This document shows, piece after piece, positions 3,702-50,199 of a stretch of 64,000 nt of DNA (its first letter is position 1; each line of letters opens with the position of its first letter). The notes under the pieces were generated by a model, which saw only the letters and a list, made by a program, of their open reading frames with translations, ran no database searches and had not been told where the DNA came from. The stretch comes from Candidatus Peregrinibacteria bacterium (GTDB taxonomy: Bacteria; Patescibacteriota; Gracilibacteria; UBA1369; JACRIC01). Location: contig JACPHH010000014.1 of assembly GCA_016188705.1 (NCBI GenBank), positions 1 to 64,000 on the forward strand. The letters are read 5' to 3'. The position numbers and the translations under genes are program-made.

Positions 3702-6700
3702 CTATTTTTGTTGCTTTTTTATATCCCAATTTCTCCACGCAACGAGAAGCGGGGAGGCAACGAAAATCGATGAATATGTTCCCGCAGTGATGCCAACTAA
3801 GAGCGCGAAAGCAAAAAATCGTATGGTCGGCGCTCCAAAAATGAAAAGAGTCAGGATGGTAAGCAAGGTCGAAAGAGATGTATTGATCGATCGAGCGAGA
3901 GTTTGATTTAAGGCTTTATTGGTAATATCTTCGAATGTTTCGTTACGCGTCTGAAATTTTAGATTTTCACGAATTCGATCAAACACGACGATGGTATCAT
4001 GCACCGAAAATCCGATAATGGTAAGAAGAGCCGTAATAAAAAGAGCATCGATTTCAACATTGAGAAATTTTCCAACAATGAGATAGGCTCCAATCGTGAT
4101 TATTACATCGTGTATAAGCGCTAAAATGGCACATATACCAAAACGCCAGGGATTAATCCTTTTTGGAATCCTTCTAAACGCGAAGGCAATATAAAGAACA
4201 ATCATGATGAGGGCCAAAATAAGGGCGTACAAGGCACGAATTTTGAGTGTTTTTCCTATGGTGGGACCTATTGTGGTGAAGCGCGGTTCTTCAAAATTTC
4301 CTAATTTTTCATTCAATGTTTTTTTAATAATTTCGTGAGTCTCGTTATCGATATACTTTGTCCGTATAATGAAGCTTTGTTGATCTGTTGGCATAACAAG
4401 AGGAGCTCCGAGTGTTATTGTTTGATTTTGTGGTTCAGAGTTAGTCTCATCGAGTTTTATTTGAGCGACTACGTCGGAAAATGTTTTGCCTTCCAAGTTT
4501 TGCAGAGCGTTGCTTACGCGATCAGTAGTTACGGTTTGATCCTCGAATTTTAATTCCATGAGACTTCCTCCAGTAAAATCGAGTCCGAAATTTGTGCCGA
4601 AAATTATGAGCGCCATCATACTGACAACGATCAAGCTTCCTGAAATTGTAAACCATGTTTTACTTCGCGCGATAAAATCAAAAGTTTTCTTTTCTTTTTT
4701 CTTCCTTGGCGCATAGAGAGCAAGTTTTTGTCCCCAACTGGTTTTAATCATCCAACGCAGAAGGGTATGTGTCACGGTAATAGCTGTAAACATCGATACA
4801 AGAATTCCCATCGCAAGATTGAAGGCAAAACCTTGAATAAGAGATGTGCCGAAGTAAAACAGAATAGCGCAAGTAATAAGTGATGAAAAATTTGAGTCGC
4901 GAATAGAACTCCATGCTCGATCAAATCCAATTTCTACGGCGGAAGTAAGAGGTTTTCCTTCATGTATTTCTTCTTTTATGCGTTCAAAAATGAGAATATT
5001 CGCATCAACCGCCATACCAATGGAAAGTATGACTCCTGCTATTCCTGCCAGGGTCAATACTACTGGAGTTATGAGTACAAGGGTCGTAAAGAAAAGAATA
5101 AAACAGGCCAGAATAAAAGCAATCATTTTTTCACCCCCTGATTCGTTGCTTTTCATTACTTTTGAAACGATCAGCACGAAAAGTATGGAAGAGAGGAATA
5201 ATGCGTATGAAAGTGGTAAGGCGGATTTTATAAGAAATAAAAGAATAACGCCGTACATAAACAGTGCGATTGTTGCGACCAGCCCGGGCAAGCGATAATA
5301 AAGAATCATGAAAAGTATTACGGCAATGAGCCCTAAAATTCCCGCTTTCATGCTTTTATCGAGCGCTATTTGGCCCAAACTTGCTCCAATCGTATATTGT
5401 CCCGCGAGTGTGATTGGCGCGGGAATCGCGCCGGTATTAAGATCGCGGGAAAGATTTGTCGCTTCGTCTATGGAGAAATTTCCACTGATTTGCGCGGACC
5501 CACCTGAGATTTTTTCATTGACCCGAGGCGCTGATATGAGATCGCCTCCGACAAAAATAGCTACTTGTTTTCCAATATTTCGTTCAGTTATTTGCTCAAA
5601 AAGTTTGGCTCCTTCATCGTTGAATTTAATCGACACATAGGGATTTCCTCCTTGCTGAAATGTAACGTCGGCATGAACAAAATGTTTTCCTGTCAGACCG
5701 GTGTCCTTCCATGCGTCTGGTGTCGTTGAATAGAAAATGCGGGCCAGTTTTACTTTTGGTTCGATTTTTGTTTCAGTAGAAAGTTCTTTAATGTTAGCTA
5801 CTTTGATTATGTGAAAACCGTATTGGCTTTTTACAATGTCGGATATTTGGTCTTTTTGCATTGCAAAAGCGGCATCGGAAAATTCTTTTACCATTTTTTC
5901 CGCAGTGAAAAATCCAAGATCTCCGCCATTTTCTTTACTTCCTTGATCTTCGGAATATTCTTTGGCAAGAGCGGCAAAATCAGCGCCTTCGGATTTTGCC
6001 TTGGCAAGGATTTCTTCCGCTCTTTTTTTTGCCTCGTCTTCCGTTCTCGTAACGGTTTCAGGCACATCTTTTACTCCCTTGTATTGAATTAAAATATGGC
6101 TTGCCTGAACTTCTTTCGGATGGTCAATTTTTCTTTCGCTATTATCTATTTTTTCAAGCAATTTATAGATTGCATAGCCTTTTTGAGTAACGAATTGTCC
6201 TGATTCATTTACTCCATAATTACCATCTTCTTCTTTGATTTCAATAAGTTCTGGGATAATATCTCCATTTTTTAAACTGGAATCAAAAGCTTTTTCGGAA
6301 ATTTTTCCTGAAAGTTGATCAGCGTAGCTATATTCTGAATCTTCGATGAATTCCACTTTTCCCGATAATTTTTTATTTTCTTCGTCCGCAATAGTTTTGA
6401 GGTCGGATTGTGGATTTTTTAAAAGAGTTTCGAGTACCGTCTGACTTTGAATTCGTATTTCTTCTTTCTTTTCAGGTTCGATTTCCGTTTTTTGTTCTTT
6501 GAATTCTAGCTGTATGATTTTTCCGACTGTTTTTTTTGCGTCTTCAATGTTCGTCAGACCAGCAAGCTCGGCTATTATATGAAATTCATTTCCAACATTG
6601 GATGTATAAATATAGGGTTCAGAAACTCCAAGTCCGTTGACTCTTCGATTGATGACTTCTTTTACTCCTTCAACGATATTTTCGCGATCACTATCGGGAA

Positions 6701-6896
6701 CATTGCTCAGATCAATTTTATAATCGAGTTGAGTCCCTCCCTGCAAGTCGAGTCCGAGTTGAATACCTGCGTTCAAAATCGACGCGGGTGTCGCGGGAAG
6801 TATTGTTTTTTGAATCGTATTCGGAAGATCAAAGAATCCGAGCAGAAGCGCTGCCACAAGGATGCCAATAACTTGCAGAGAAAGGTATTTTTTCAT
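3702..6896 (-). CDS. secDF: SecD-SecF fusion with embedded parvulin (PpiC) domain
   Basis: A 1064-aa membrane protein of the Sec translocon that uses the proton motive force to pull exported proteins outward. After an N-terminal membrane segment (about 5-24) comes the SecD head (GLDLQGGTQLDYK, 48-60). A parvulin prolyl isomerase follows at about 263-370 (SHILIQYKG, GGDLGFF, YGFHIIKV), preceded by a second, degenerate parvulin-like stretch (about 150-250). The SecD P1 end, six membrane helices (from about 515; GMAVDANILIFERI) and the SecF half (from about 740; GLDFTGGSLMEL, FSVHDTIVVFDRI) complete it. SecDF fusions are known; a foldase inside the SecD head is not part of the usual architecture. 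It lies just downstream of the cupin gene. Confidence 0.93.
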   Translation of the reverse strand: MKKYLSLQVIGILVAALLLGFFDLPNTIQKTILPATPASILNAGIQLGLDLQGGTQLDYKIDLSNVPDSDRENIVEGVKEVINRRVNGLGVSEPYIYTSNVGNEFHIIAELAGLTNIEDAKKTVGKIIQLEFKEQKTEIEPEKKEEIRIQSQTVLETLLKNPQSDLKTIADEENKKLSGKVEFIEDSEYSYADQLSGKISEKAFDSSLKNGDIIPELIEIKEEDGNYGVNESGQFVTQKGYAIYKLLEKIDNSERKIDHPKEVQASHILIQYKGVKDVPETVTRTEDEAKKRAEEILAKAKSEGADFAALAKEYSEDQGSKENGGDLGFFTAEKMVKEFSDAAFAMQKDQISDIVKSQYGFHIIKVANIKELSTETKIEPKVKLARIFYSTTPDAWKDTGLTGKHFVHADVTFQQGGNPYVSIKFNDEGAKLFEQITERNIGKQVAIFVGGDLISAPRVNEKISGGSAQISGNFSIDEATNLSRDLNTGAIPAPITLAGQYTIGASLGQIALDKSMKAGILGLIAVILFMILYYRLPGLVATIALFMYGVILLFLIKSALPLSYALFLSSILFVLIVSKVMKSNESGGEKMIAFILACFILFFTTLVLITPVVLTLAGIAGVILSIGMAVDANILIFERIKEEIHEGKPLTSAVEIGFDRAWSSIRDSNFSSLITCAILFYFGTSLIQGFAFNLAMGILVSMFTAITVTHTLLRWMIKTSWGQKLALYAPRKKKEKKTFDFIARSKTWFTISGSLIVVSMMALIIFGTNFGLDFTGGSLMELKFEDQTVTTDRVSNALQNLEGKTFSDVVAQIKLDETNSEPQNQTITLGAPLVMPTDQQSFIIRTKYIDNETHEIIKKTLNEKLGNFEEPRFTTIGPTIGKTLKIRALYALILALIMIVLYIAFAFRRIPKRINPWRFGICAILALIHDVIITIGAYLIVGKFLNVEIDALFITALLTIIGFSVHDTIVVFDRIRENLKFQTRNETFEDITNKALNQTLARSINTSLSTLLTILTLFIFGAPTIRFFAFALLVGITAGTYSSIFVASPLLVAWRNWDIKKQQK

Positions 6897-46687: not shown

Positions 46688-47488
46688 TCACAACTGATTC
46701 ATAAAGCGAAAAGGATTTTCTAAAAAAGATCGTAGACTGAATGATGGGGATTGAGGAGAAAATGTTTTAGGAATTTTGATATCTTTAATATCAATGTAAG
46801 ATATGATTCCCCTATCATCTCTGACCTCCAATGTATTTCTATTCATTAAGGAAAGTCTTACGTATTTAAATTTTTTTTCCTCCCCATATTCACTTATGGT
46901 GATTTCATCTCCTTCTCTTAGTTGAGCAATATATCTTACTTTTTCAGATCGTGATTCCCTAATAGGCTCCTCCTTAATAGGCCCTTCATTTGGGGCTGTT
47001 GCTGGGCATTCAGAATTCATTGTTTTTGCAATATTTTTCCTACAATATCTGCTCGGAGATGTTTGGTCGTTTCGGCTTGGATATTCTCTTTTTAGAGCTG
47101 TAATTGGATTGCTTGTTGGATTTTTTCTCATCATTCTCCACTCTGCGCGCCCTAAATGGCGCGCTGCTCCAAAATATCCTTCTCGATCCAGAGTTTTTCT
47201 CGTTGATGCTTTTAATCCTCTGAGTTCTCTTCTTTGCCCCTTGCTTAAGTCTCCTGTCTCCATGAGATATCTTATTCTTAGCACAGTCTCTTCACTAGTC
47301 CTGTTGATTTCCGATTTTAATTTTTCATCTTTTTCTTGAGTAGCTACAATTTGAGCTGATTGAACTGAAGCACGTTCAACCAATCGTCTATATCGTTCAT
47401 CAGGGCTTATATAATCTTCATCTTTATCTTTATCTTTATCTTCGTCTGAAGGTTTGCGATGTTGTCTTTCATTTCTAAATCTGGTCAT
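46688..47488 (-). CDS. Unknown 266-aa protein
   Basis: I do not recognise it. The N-terminus is polar with a DK repeat (DEDKDKDKDED), then a helical region (about 35-110) and a likely disordered stretch (115-180). The C-terminal part (about 185-240) has alternating hydrophobic residues (LREGDEITISEYGEEKKFKY, NTLEVRDDRGIISYIDI), like a small SH3-type beta barrel. No signal peptide or membrane helix. It converges with gyrB. A short hairpin (GGCAT/ATGCC) lies between them. Confidence 0.7.
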   Translation of the reverse strand: MTRFRNERQHRKPSDEDKDKDKDEDYISPDERYRRLVERASVQSAQIVATQEKDEKLKSEINRTSEETVLRIRYLMETGDLSKGQRRELRGLKASTRKTLDREGYFGAARHLGRAEWRMMRKNPTSNPITALKREYPSRNDQTSPSRYCRKNIAKTMNSECPATAPNEGPIKEEPIRESRSEKVRYIAQLREGDEITISEYGEEKKFKYVRLSLMNRNTLEVRDDRGIISYIDIKDIKIPKTFSPQSPSFSLRSFLENPFRFMNQL

Positions 47489-47969: not shown

Positions 47970-48383
47970 TTAATGTTTTTCGAGATCTGTTGTTAAGGCT
48001 GTTCCTGTTAAAACTTCACGCAGTTTTGTCCTTCTTTCTTTCAGTCCTCCATCTTCACCTAGACTATTTCCGTCAGCTCTGTAAACATTTAAGGCTGCTT
48101 CTAATAAGTCAGTATCCCCTGTCGCAAGTTTTTTCAATTTTGCAAGTGTTCCGCATTCTGCTTGAAGTTTTTGTACTATATCCGTCGTTGGCGGTATGCC
48201 TGTTGCCTCCTGTATCGCATGCAGCGCCGACAGCAAAGGTGTACTTGCAAATTTTGATCTTTCACGAGAATGGGCTGGAGGCACTTTTATTCCAGTTTCT
48301 CTAAATTCATCTGTTTCCAAAAGATCGCATAAATCAGGGTATTTTCTTATTTCTTGCGTGGATTCTCCACTAGTAGATGTCAT
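47970..48383 (-). CDS. SAM-riboswitch-controlled protein of unknown function
   Basis: A 137-aa soluble protein that I do not recognise. It starts with a polar segment, then has a helical core (ALHAIQEATGIPPTTDIVQKL, KLKKLATGDTDLLEAALNVY) and ends with a charged helix. One pair of cysteines (CDLL, ECGTL). No methyltransferase, transporter or methionine-pathway motif is seen. It is the only gene between the SAM-I riboswitch and the terminator, so its expression should fall when S-adenosylmethionine is plentiful; a role linked to methionine or SAM is inferred from this alone. No SD. Confidence 0.8.
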   Translation of the reverse strand: MTSTSGESTQEIRKYPDLCDLLETDEFRETGIKVPPAHSRERSKFASTPLLSALHAIQEATGIPPTTDIVQKLQAECGTLAKLKKLATGDTDLLEAALNVYRADGNSLGEDGGLKERRTKLREVLTGTALTTDLEKH

Positions 48384-48517: not shown

Positions 48518-48630
48518 GTTTCATCTTTCCCAATTGCTTGGGGCGGATTTAGCACCACTTCCTGATGGCCATCTAAGGAGAGGTTGCTGTGGTTTCATAG
48601 GGCCGAATCCCTCCACCACTCTGGATAAAC
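48518..48630 (-). promoter_or_regulatory. SAM-I (S-box) riboswitch aptamer
   Basis: The minus strand shows all S-box hallmarks in order: GTTTATCCAGAG, GGTGGAGGGATTCGGCCC, TATGAAACC, CAGCAACC, then GGTGCTAAATCC, the P4 stem GCCCCAAGCAATTGGG and AAAGATGAAAC closing P1 (GTTT-ATC with GAT-G-AAAC, one bulged G). Binding of S-adenosylmethionine stabilises P1; this holds GAAAGAT in the aptamer and lets the downstream terminator form, so it is an OFF switch. It precedes the unknown 137-aa gene. Confidence 0.95.
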
Positions 48631-48644
48631 TGAATTGTGATTTA

Positions 48645-48709: not shown

Positions 48710-48779
48710 TTGACTTTTTTTCGTGTTTGACTATACTTTTGGAGTATTCATGTACTTAATTTACTCTTAAATAGGAGGT
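48710..48779 (+). promoter_or_regulatory. rpsU promoter and perfect Shine-Dalgarno sequence
   Basis: TTGACT (48710-48715), spacer 16, TATACT (48732-48737). The leader carries AGGAGGT at 48773-48779, ten bases before the ATG. It is the only strong SD among the gene starts I inspected in this window. Confidence 0.85.
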
Positions 48780-48789
48780 ATTTTTTTCT

Positions 48790-48996
48790 ATGTCAACACG
48801 AGTTTGGAAAAATGATAAAGAATCTACGGAACGTTTTTTTCAGCGTTTTAATGCTCAAGTTCAAAAGAGTCGCGTGGTTTTGGCAGCCAAGGATTCGATG
48901 CATTTTAAAAAAAAGTCGAATAAGCGGCGTACCCGGCAAGCCGCGAAAATGCGTGATTTTTATAGAACGGAACGAGAAAGAAAGAAGTTTTACTAA
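48790..48996 (+). CDS. rpsU: Ribosomal protein S21
   Basis: Small-subunit protein bS21, 68 aa, next to the anti-SD end of 16S rRNA. The N-terminal part (ESTERFFQRFNAQVQKSRVV) matches the S21 RRF helix, followed by the basic HFKKKSNKRRTRQAAKMRDF helix. It lacks the typical FYEKP motif, which here appears as MHFKK. Its mRNA has a strong SD whereas its neighbours have none, which suggests autogenous control. prmC follows 34 bases later on the same strand. Confidence 0.88.
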   Translation: MSTRVWKNDKESTERFFQRFNAQVQKSRVVLAAKDSMHFKKKSNKRRTRQAAKMRDFYRTERERKKFY

Positions 48997-49029
48997 TTGT
49001 CGATTGTTTTATATCGGCTTACAATTTTT

Positions 49030-50199
49030 ATGAGCCTTTTTTTTGACGCGGTTCAAGACAATGCATGCGTTTCAAAAGTTCTTCAGCATGCGTTTCGTGA
49101 ACTTTCGCTTTATCGTGGAGTTCCATTGTACTCTAGTAAAACACCATTTTCTTTTAAGAAAAGTGAGGTTGTTTGTGAAAAAGGCGTCGCTGATTGTCAA
49201 AAAGAAGTGGCTGTTTGTGAAAATGTTACAGTTGCTTTTGAAAAATCTGTAGACGCTTTTGATAAGATTTCGGTTGAAAAAAATGTTTTTTGGTTGGAAT
49301 GCGAGCTTCTTTTAGCCCATGTGCTCGAGCTTCGTCGTGAAGATATTTTCATGGCTCAAGAAAAAATTTTAGATTCAGAGCAGTTGGAACGTTTTTTTTA
49401 TTTTTTTCAGCGTCTCAAAGAAGGTGAACCGCTTGCTTATATTATTAATACAAAAGAATTTTATGGACTTTCTTTCTATGTTGACGATCGAGTGATGATT
49501 CCTCGGCCTGAAACCGAGATGCTGGTCGAAACGCTTAAGGAATTGCATGAAAATAGAAATGAACATTTGAATAGTGATATTTATTTAGAATCTGAATGTC
49601 GCTTAAAAAATTATGATTGTTTGAAAAGTAGTAATTATTTAAAGGATGATGTTTGTTTGAAAAATGATGTTCGTTTGAAACGCGATATAAAATTTGTGGA
49701 TATTGGCACGGGATCTGGAAATTTGGCGATCGCGCTTGCTCATATTTTTAAAAACGCGCACGTTCTCGCTCTTGATGTCTCAAAAGACGCTCTTGATGTT
49801 GCATCCATGAATGTTCGGCGTTTTGGTCTTGAAAATCGCGTTTTACTTCGTCAAAATGATCTCCTTTCCGGATTTGCCGATGAAAATTTCGATGCCGTGG
49901 TGGCGAATTTGCCCTATATTGGCACTGAAAAGTACCATTTTGTTTCTGATCAGACGAAACGTTTTGAACCCCATCTCGCTTTATTCGGAGGATCAGATGG
50001 TTTAGAATGTTATCGTCGTCTTTTTTTACAAATAACCCAGATGAAAATTCGGCCGCGATATGTTCTCGGTGAAATAGGATTTTTGCAAGGAGAAGGACTG
50101 AGAACCGAAGCCGCGCGTTTTTTTCCGGAAATTTTTTGTGAAATACGACAAGATTTGGCTGGACTTGACCGAATGTTTGTACTGAAAATGTATCCATGA
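49030..50199 (+). CDS. prmC: Release-factor glutamine methyltransferase PrmC with low-complexity insertions
   Basis: Methylates the GGQ glutamine of release factors. SAM-binding motif VDIGTGSGNLAIALA (about 223-237), ALDVSKDALDVA and the catalytic motif NLPY (293-296; the usual form is NPPY). MIPRPETEML precedes the domain. 389 aa is about 100 longer than usual: residues about 33-84 hold a repetitive KSEVVCEKGVADCQKEVAV-type insert and about 176-218 a SECRLKNYDCLKSSNYLKDD-type insert. The target gene prfA follows. The ATG is preferred over an in-frame TTG at 48997. Confidence 0.92.
   Translation: MSLFFDAVQDNACVSKVLQHAFRELSLYRGVPLYSSKTPFSFKKSEVVCEKGVADCQKEVAVCENVTVAFEKSVDAFDKISVEKNVFWLECELLLAHVLELRREDIFMAQEKILDSEQLERFFYFFQRLKEGEPLAYIINTKEFYGLSFYVDDRVMIPRPETEMLVETLKELHENRNEHLNSDIYLESECRLKNYDCLKSSNYLKDDVCLKNDVRLKRDIKFVDIGTGSGNLAIALAHIFKNAHVLALDVSKDALDVASMNVRRFGLENRVLLRQNDLLSGFADENFDAVVANLPYIGTEKYHFVSDQTKRFEPHLALFGGSDGLECYRRLFLQITQMKIRPRYVLGEIGFLQGEGLRTEAARFFPEIFCEIRQDLAGLDRMFVLKMYP

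Follow-up and report, generated by a model that had tools for sequence, protein, structure and literature searches.

The window, that is, the whole stretch of DNA analysed, is 64,000 nucleotides long and lies within contig 17 of a Candidatus Peregrinibacteria MAG (Patescibacteria/CPR; 35 contigs, 1,374,393 bases), referred to below as the host genome. Its forward strand carries rpsU, the gene for ribosomal protein bS21, preceded by a Shine-Dalgarno (SD) sequence and followed by prmC and then prfA:

48710 to 48737, forward strand: predicted rpsU promoter, TTGACT, 16 nt, TATACT (consensus scan, 10 of 12 matches)
48773 to 48779, forward strand: Shine-Dalgarno sequence AGGAGGT of rpsU (from the sequence, from a predicted pairing with the 16S tail stronger than that of any other leader, and from its retention in most relatives)
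48790 to 48996, forward strand: rpsU, ribosomal protein bS21, 68 amino acids (PF01165, TIGR00030, orthologues)
48997 to 50199, forward strand: prmC, release factor methyltransferase (PF17827, E 1.7e-12), without an SD

The GGAGG of rpsU is separated from the ATG at 48790 by 11 nt (48779-48789). If the predicted promoter is used, the leader would be about 46 nt long; 1.9 promoter-like sites are expected by chance within the 800 bases scanned. The start of prmC is either the TTG at 48997 or the ATG at 49030, the latter being the choice of the gene caller, and the gene, lying directly 3' of rpsU, probably shares its transcript. As for the other release factor gene, prfB (C33:15004-16056) is a single open frame without a programmed frameshift. 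Divergent from rpsU, on the reverse strand, the window contains a SAM-I riboswitch (48518-48631) with a perfect promoter, TTGACA-16-TATAAT, at 48672-48645; below it lie a gene at 47970-48383 (137 aa) and another at 46688-47488 (266 aa), both without a Pfam match.

The product of the rpsU reading frame matches PF01165 with 24.9 bits (E 1.6e-5), marginally below the curated cut-off of 27, and TIGR00030 with an E-value of 5e-4. Relatives located via bS21 are labelled Candidatus Peregrinibacteria or Patescibacteria, with one Gracilibacteria, and 59 relatives of the host's order were compared; the scan of contigs for bS21 used a narrow alignment, an alignment of 15 diverse bS21 sequences being too variable. 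Orthologues with 34-51% identity were found in 52 of the 59, and a profile built from the bS21 proteins of the order matches solved bS21 chains (E 1e-6). Judged by these sequence comparisons, the rpsU product is a divergent member of the bS21 family. No bS21 was detected in G016 and G027 (family f16), G004, G015 and G028, where gaps in the assemblies are possible.

The frequency of SD motifs was determined over all 35 contigs with gene calls from a simple hexamer model without an SD term, which gave 1109 genes with uncurated starts and a coverage of 86%. Among the 45 genes called in the window, a number in agreement with the roughly 45 starts of the original observation, a single one has even a weak GAGG or AGGA. 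In the 17-nt leader windows of the 1109 genes, AGGAGG occurs once, GGAGG twice, AGGAG four times and GGAG 11 times. Shuffled leaders give much the same counts (AGGAGG 0.3, GGAGG 0.8, AGGAG 3.1), and a control window farther upstream exceeds them (2, 4 and 8, respectively). Likewise, a pairing with the anti-SD of -7 kcal/mol or stronger is predicted for 17 real leaders and for 46 mock windows. SD motifs are hence not above chance over the 1109 genes, and the host genome is SD-less.

Duplex energies were computed with ViennaRNA and the 16S tail of the relatives, the host's own 16S being absent from the assembly. The leader of rpsU ranks first among all called leaders (-11.6 kcal/mol). It is followed by that of C8:57027-58056 (-11.1 kcal/mol; AAGGAGG, TTG start, AAGGAGGATATTTTT), encoding an HTH_17 protein of 342 aa that contains polar repeats, while ranks 3 and 4 are held by C32:50951 (-9.2) and C22:45610 (-9.1). 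The original prediction that rpsU is the only gene with a strong SD thus stands within the window but not genome-wide, where rpsU is better described as nearly the only such gene, since C8:57027 comes close. The count over the whole genome otherwise agrees with it, as few strong SDs lie outside the window. Nor is the SD of rpsU a product of chance, because only about 0.3 AGGAGG are expected in 1109 shuffled leaders and most orthologues of the order have the motif too. A generous scan of all possible starts found seven sites at -11.6 kcal/mol or below at positions other than rpsU. The strongest of them (-18.3, C14) was discarded as an internal codon run encoding Gly-Lys-Gly-Gly-Asp-Gly, and the remaining ones are alternative starts, mostly within called genes. 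The pattern GGAGG, 5-10 nt, ATG, sought in the whole host genome against the same pattern with CCTCC, gave 164 vs 165 matches and was likewise set aside; counts based on genes were preferred to such patterns because coding-strand bias makes the control less clear in the genomes of relatives.

Leaders of rpsU could be read in 50 genomes of the order, host included, and in 30 of them the predicted pairing reaches -11 kcal/mol or stronger, so that the motif recurs in most orthologues, as the original prediction would have it. By comparison, of 603 other genes at the loci of the same genomes, one reaches -11 kcal/mol and four have GGAGG or AGGAG. Outside the host's family, SD-bearing rpsU genes pair with -13.9 to -20.5 kcal/mol. 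The values of the host (-11.6) and of its family sister (-11.4) are weaker than the -13 kcal/mol taken as a mark in Bacteroidota, in which rpsU pairing runs from -14 to -21 kcal/mol (PMC9976891), these energies having been obtained with free_scan and not, as here, with ViennaRNA. The SD is missing before rpsU in f3, f11, f12 and f15, in parts of f4, f13 and f14, and in G054 (f2). The sequence flanking it diverges freely across families, and the nucleotides complementary to the 16S tail are kept; besides the SD, no conserved element was seen among the leaders compared. The gene rpsR, which bears an SD in several orders of Bacteroidia (PMC9976891), has none in any of 41 genomes of the order, nor does it serve as a substitute in lineages whose rpsU lacks one, and an SD is also absent from the genes around rpsF and rpsR in the loci sampled.

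In Flavobacterium, bS21, bS18 and bS6 mask the anti-SD, and ribosomes lacking bS21 preferentially translate rpsU (PMC9976891); Tyr54 of bS21 is central to the masking. The Flavobacterium bS21 sequence used in the alignment was checked against 7jil, and one residue was corrected. MAFFT places a conserved aromatic residue of the order's bS21, Tyr58, opposite Tyr54, in a C-terminal region where the alignment is not reliable, and hhalign aligns just the first 40 or so columns of the two profiles, leaving the Tyr54 region outside. This aromatic residue occurs also in lineages whose rpsU has no SD. Conservation of Tyr54 was dropped as a proof of masking after the profile comparison had left the region unaligned, and it is by analogy with Flavobacterium that bS21 is taken to mask the anti-SD in Peregrinibacteria. 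The reading that we favour, and hold to be moderately probable, is that bS21 regulates its own synthesis through the availability of the anti-SD, as in Flavobacterium, and that this is a retained CPR trait. Translation in Peregrinibacteria would generally initiate without SD pairing, though most lineages retain CCUCC, and rpsU would be the main gene using the anti-SD. On a 30S subunit devoid of bS21 the anti-SD would be free, allowing efficient initiation at the strong SD of rpsU; once bS21 is bound, the anti-SD would be masked and rpsU translated less, so that masking would set the level of bS21.

The 3' end of the 16S rRNA was read in 40 genomes of the order, most of which have the CCUCC core of the anti-SD. 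The core is altered in G033, G041, G026, G024, G057, G013, G048, G042, G030, G037, G016 and G027, where it reads AUCUCU, ACCUCU, AUCUCC or AUUCCC; the most altered version, AUUCCC, is that of the two f16 genomes, G016 and G027, in which bS21 is undetected. Both traits could be compared in 36 genomes on a tree of 16S sequences from which the tail had been omitted. Of 26 genomes with intact CCUCC, 22 have an rpsU SD and four (G003, G011, G023 and G034) do not, while none of the ten with an altered core has one, two of these ten being G016 and G027, without detected bS21. Inspection of the 16S ends bears out the expected anti-SD: every one of the 22 genomes that carry an rpsU SD in the tree test has CCUCC, a set to which the host, for want of its own 16S, does not belong. 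G042, an eleventh genome with an altered core and outside the tree test, fits the pattern. Fisher's test, which ignores relatedness, gives p 4e-6; among six independent contrasts the SD changes in the same direction in five and in the opposite direction in none (sign test, p 0.06). Within families f4, f13 and f14, the rpsU SD and the anti-SD vary jointly between sister lineages. A compensatory SD fitting an altered anti-SD (AGAGA before rpsU) was not seen in the rpsU leaders of the order. Overall, the SD of rpsU tracks the anti-SD of the 16S rRNA, with support that is good but not overwhelming.

This association bears on another way in which bS21 could control its own gene, namely classical autogenous repression, in which the protein binds its own leader directly and the SD is simply the site that it covers, with no masking of the anti-SD. 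Such a role would suit bS21, a small, strongly basic protein that binds RNA beside the 16S tail. Nevertheless, the SD is the sole conserved leader sequence seen among the relatives, and its loss together with the anti-SD points to pairing with rRNA, which makes direct binding very improbable.

Autoregulation through the anti-SD need not be the only constraint on the 16S tail, and the four CCUCC genomes without an rpsU SD imply that the core either is under another constraint or decays slowly. One candidate is Era, which binds GAUCACCUCC and is lost in most CPR (PMC10582724). Era was not detected in the 59 genomes, as all the matches to the Era model that were listed extend at most slightly beyond the GTPase domain, and they belong mostly to proteins with tandem domains, like Der; being undetected, Era is unlikely to maintain CCUCC. 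Another candidate is the processing of the precursor. In nearly all of the 40 genomes the 16S tail pairs with the flank of the pre-16S, a hairpin that is mostly kept where the anti-SD core is altered, and this makes precursor processing a rival constraint on the tail. Independently of these questions, the 16S loci show a variety of altered anti-SD cores within one order (for example L078, L079, L081, L085, L088 and L255). An open reading frame resembling a LAGLIDADG homing endonuclease (L168 2570-3005) lies by the enlarged 16S gene of G034, which probably contains an intron, and G046 and G043 have long 16S genes too.

The rest of the phylum was sampled through 30 short loci from other CPR families and through pattern counts. 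A pairing of -12 kcal/mol or stronger is predicted for rpsU in at least 16 of the 30 loci. In genomes elsewhere in the CPR, some to tens of ATGs have an extended SD before them, as in G122 (30 matches vs 3 in the control) and G217 (33 vs 0), whereas nine genomes of the host's order, summed, stay at the control level (43 vs 41). In some other CPR (L288, L291, L300 and others) an extended SD is found some 115-150 nt 5' of the part that encodes the conserved region of bS21, which suggests N-terminally extended bS21 proteins. Since the SD of rpsU is common in CPR where other genes also carry SDs, it appears to have been retained rather than newly gained, and the simplest reading is that it is old in the CPR and was kept while Peregrinibacteria lost the others.

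The same survey lends something to two explanations that dispense with regulation. Because rpsU elsewhere belongs to a set of some to tens of genes bearing an extended SD, its SD could merely ensure a high, unregulated translation of bS21 by way of a free, unmasked anti-SD, with the other genes relying on their A/T-rich, unstructured leaders. Leaders are indeed A/T-rich, and masking by bS21 is in this phylum a matter of analogy; yet other ribosomal protein genes, whose products are needed in equal stoichiometry, have no SD (rpsR being the case in point), and a generic signal of strength would not be expected to be confined to rpsU across 11 families. This explanation is accordingly considered unlikely. 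The SD could also be a relic of a wider ancestral use, lingering by slow decay or by some other constraint on the start region and having no present function in pairing. Strong rpsU SDs across the phylum, and their loss in four lineages with intact CCUCC, are in line with this, but a relic would not be expected to keep the tail-complementary nucleotides while the flanking sequence diverges, and a site serving something else would not predict the absence of the SD from every genome with an altered anti-SD; we regard it as quite unlikely. Autoregulation through the anti-SD fits these data better. The original prediction of a convergent or ancient bS21 circuit is upheld in part, as regards the SD-less genome, the near-unique SD of rpsU, its conservation and its dependence on the anti-SD, and it is narrowed to retention, for which the evidence is better than for a new gain.

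The arrangement resembles, down to details, that of Flavobacterium johnsoniae (McNutt et al. 2023, PMC9976891), with an SD-less genome, an intact anti-SD and an extended SD on rpsU, whose presence depends on the sequence of the anti-SD (PMC9976891). It differs in belonging to another phylum, in having no secure equivalent of Tyr54, and in the fact that Era is undetected. The consequence of a change in the anti-SD core also differs, as the rpsU SD is absent in Peregrinibacteria but compensated in the relatives of Chryseobacterium. A further parallel is offered by Chlorobia, also a phylum different from that of the Peregrinibacteria, in which a strong SD gives rpsU the best pairing among ribosomal protein genes and bS21 lacks the Tyr54 signature (PMC9976891); there, conservation or conservative substitution is reported for 11 further contact residues in bS21, bS18 or bS6 (PMC9976891). 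Within the same candidate phylum, the accessible part of a survey that treats genomes as wholes reports the same scarcity of SDs and loss of the anti-SD, with Ca. Peribacter riflensis listed as SD-scarce and without CCUCC, and that part draws no link from rpsU or bS21 to the retention of the anti-SD in Peregrinibacteria (PMC10783764). In the open-access literature, subscription papers and preprints being outside the search, an rpsU SD, bS21 and anti-SD masking are linked only for Bacteroidota, and the signature described here outside that phylum is provisionally regarded as new.

Specialised ribosomes dependent on bS21 are among the clearest bacterial cases in which the composition of the ribosome selects an mRNA. 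The signature in Patescibacteria, where the anti-SD and the rpsU SD have both been lost repeatedly, puts the circuit to an evolutionary test, and it may explain why an anti-SD is retained in bacteria that make no use of SDs. A more far-reaching proposal can be made tentatively, with the odds somewhat against it: in Era-less, SD-less Peregrinibacteria the rpsU mRNA may be the main force preserving the anti-SD, which would decay, repeatedly, once the SD is lost, and the loop may be old and common to CPR and Bacteroidota rather than an invention of the latter.

Two further features of the host genome can be recorded. On the reverse strand of the window, positions 3702-6896 encode a fusion of SecD and SecF, in which residues 249-375 of the SecD part match a PrsA/parvulin-like peptidyl-prolyl isomerase. 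Finally, a dispersed repeat of about 250 bases has inverted arms, GAGACGTATTTTGTTCAGTTC and GGACAAAATACGTCTC, and contains AAGGAGTGACGCAGAAATG; 14 copies were counted by one motif, and the repeat is found on C7, C11, C13, C20, C22, C25, C31, C32 and C35 (for example L043 and L094), possibly representing a mobile or structured element.
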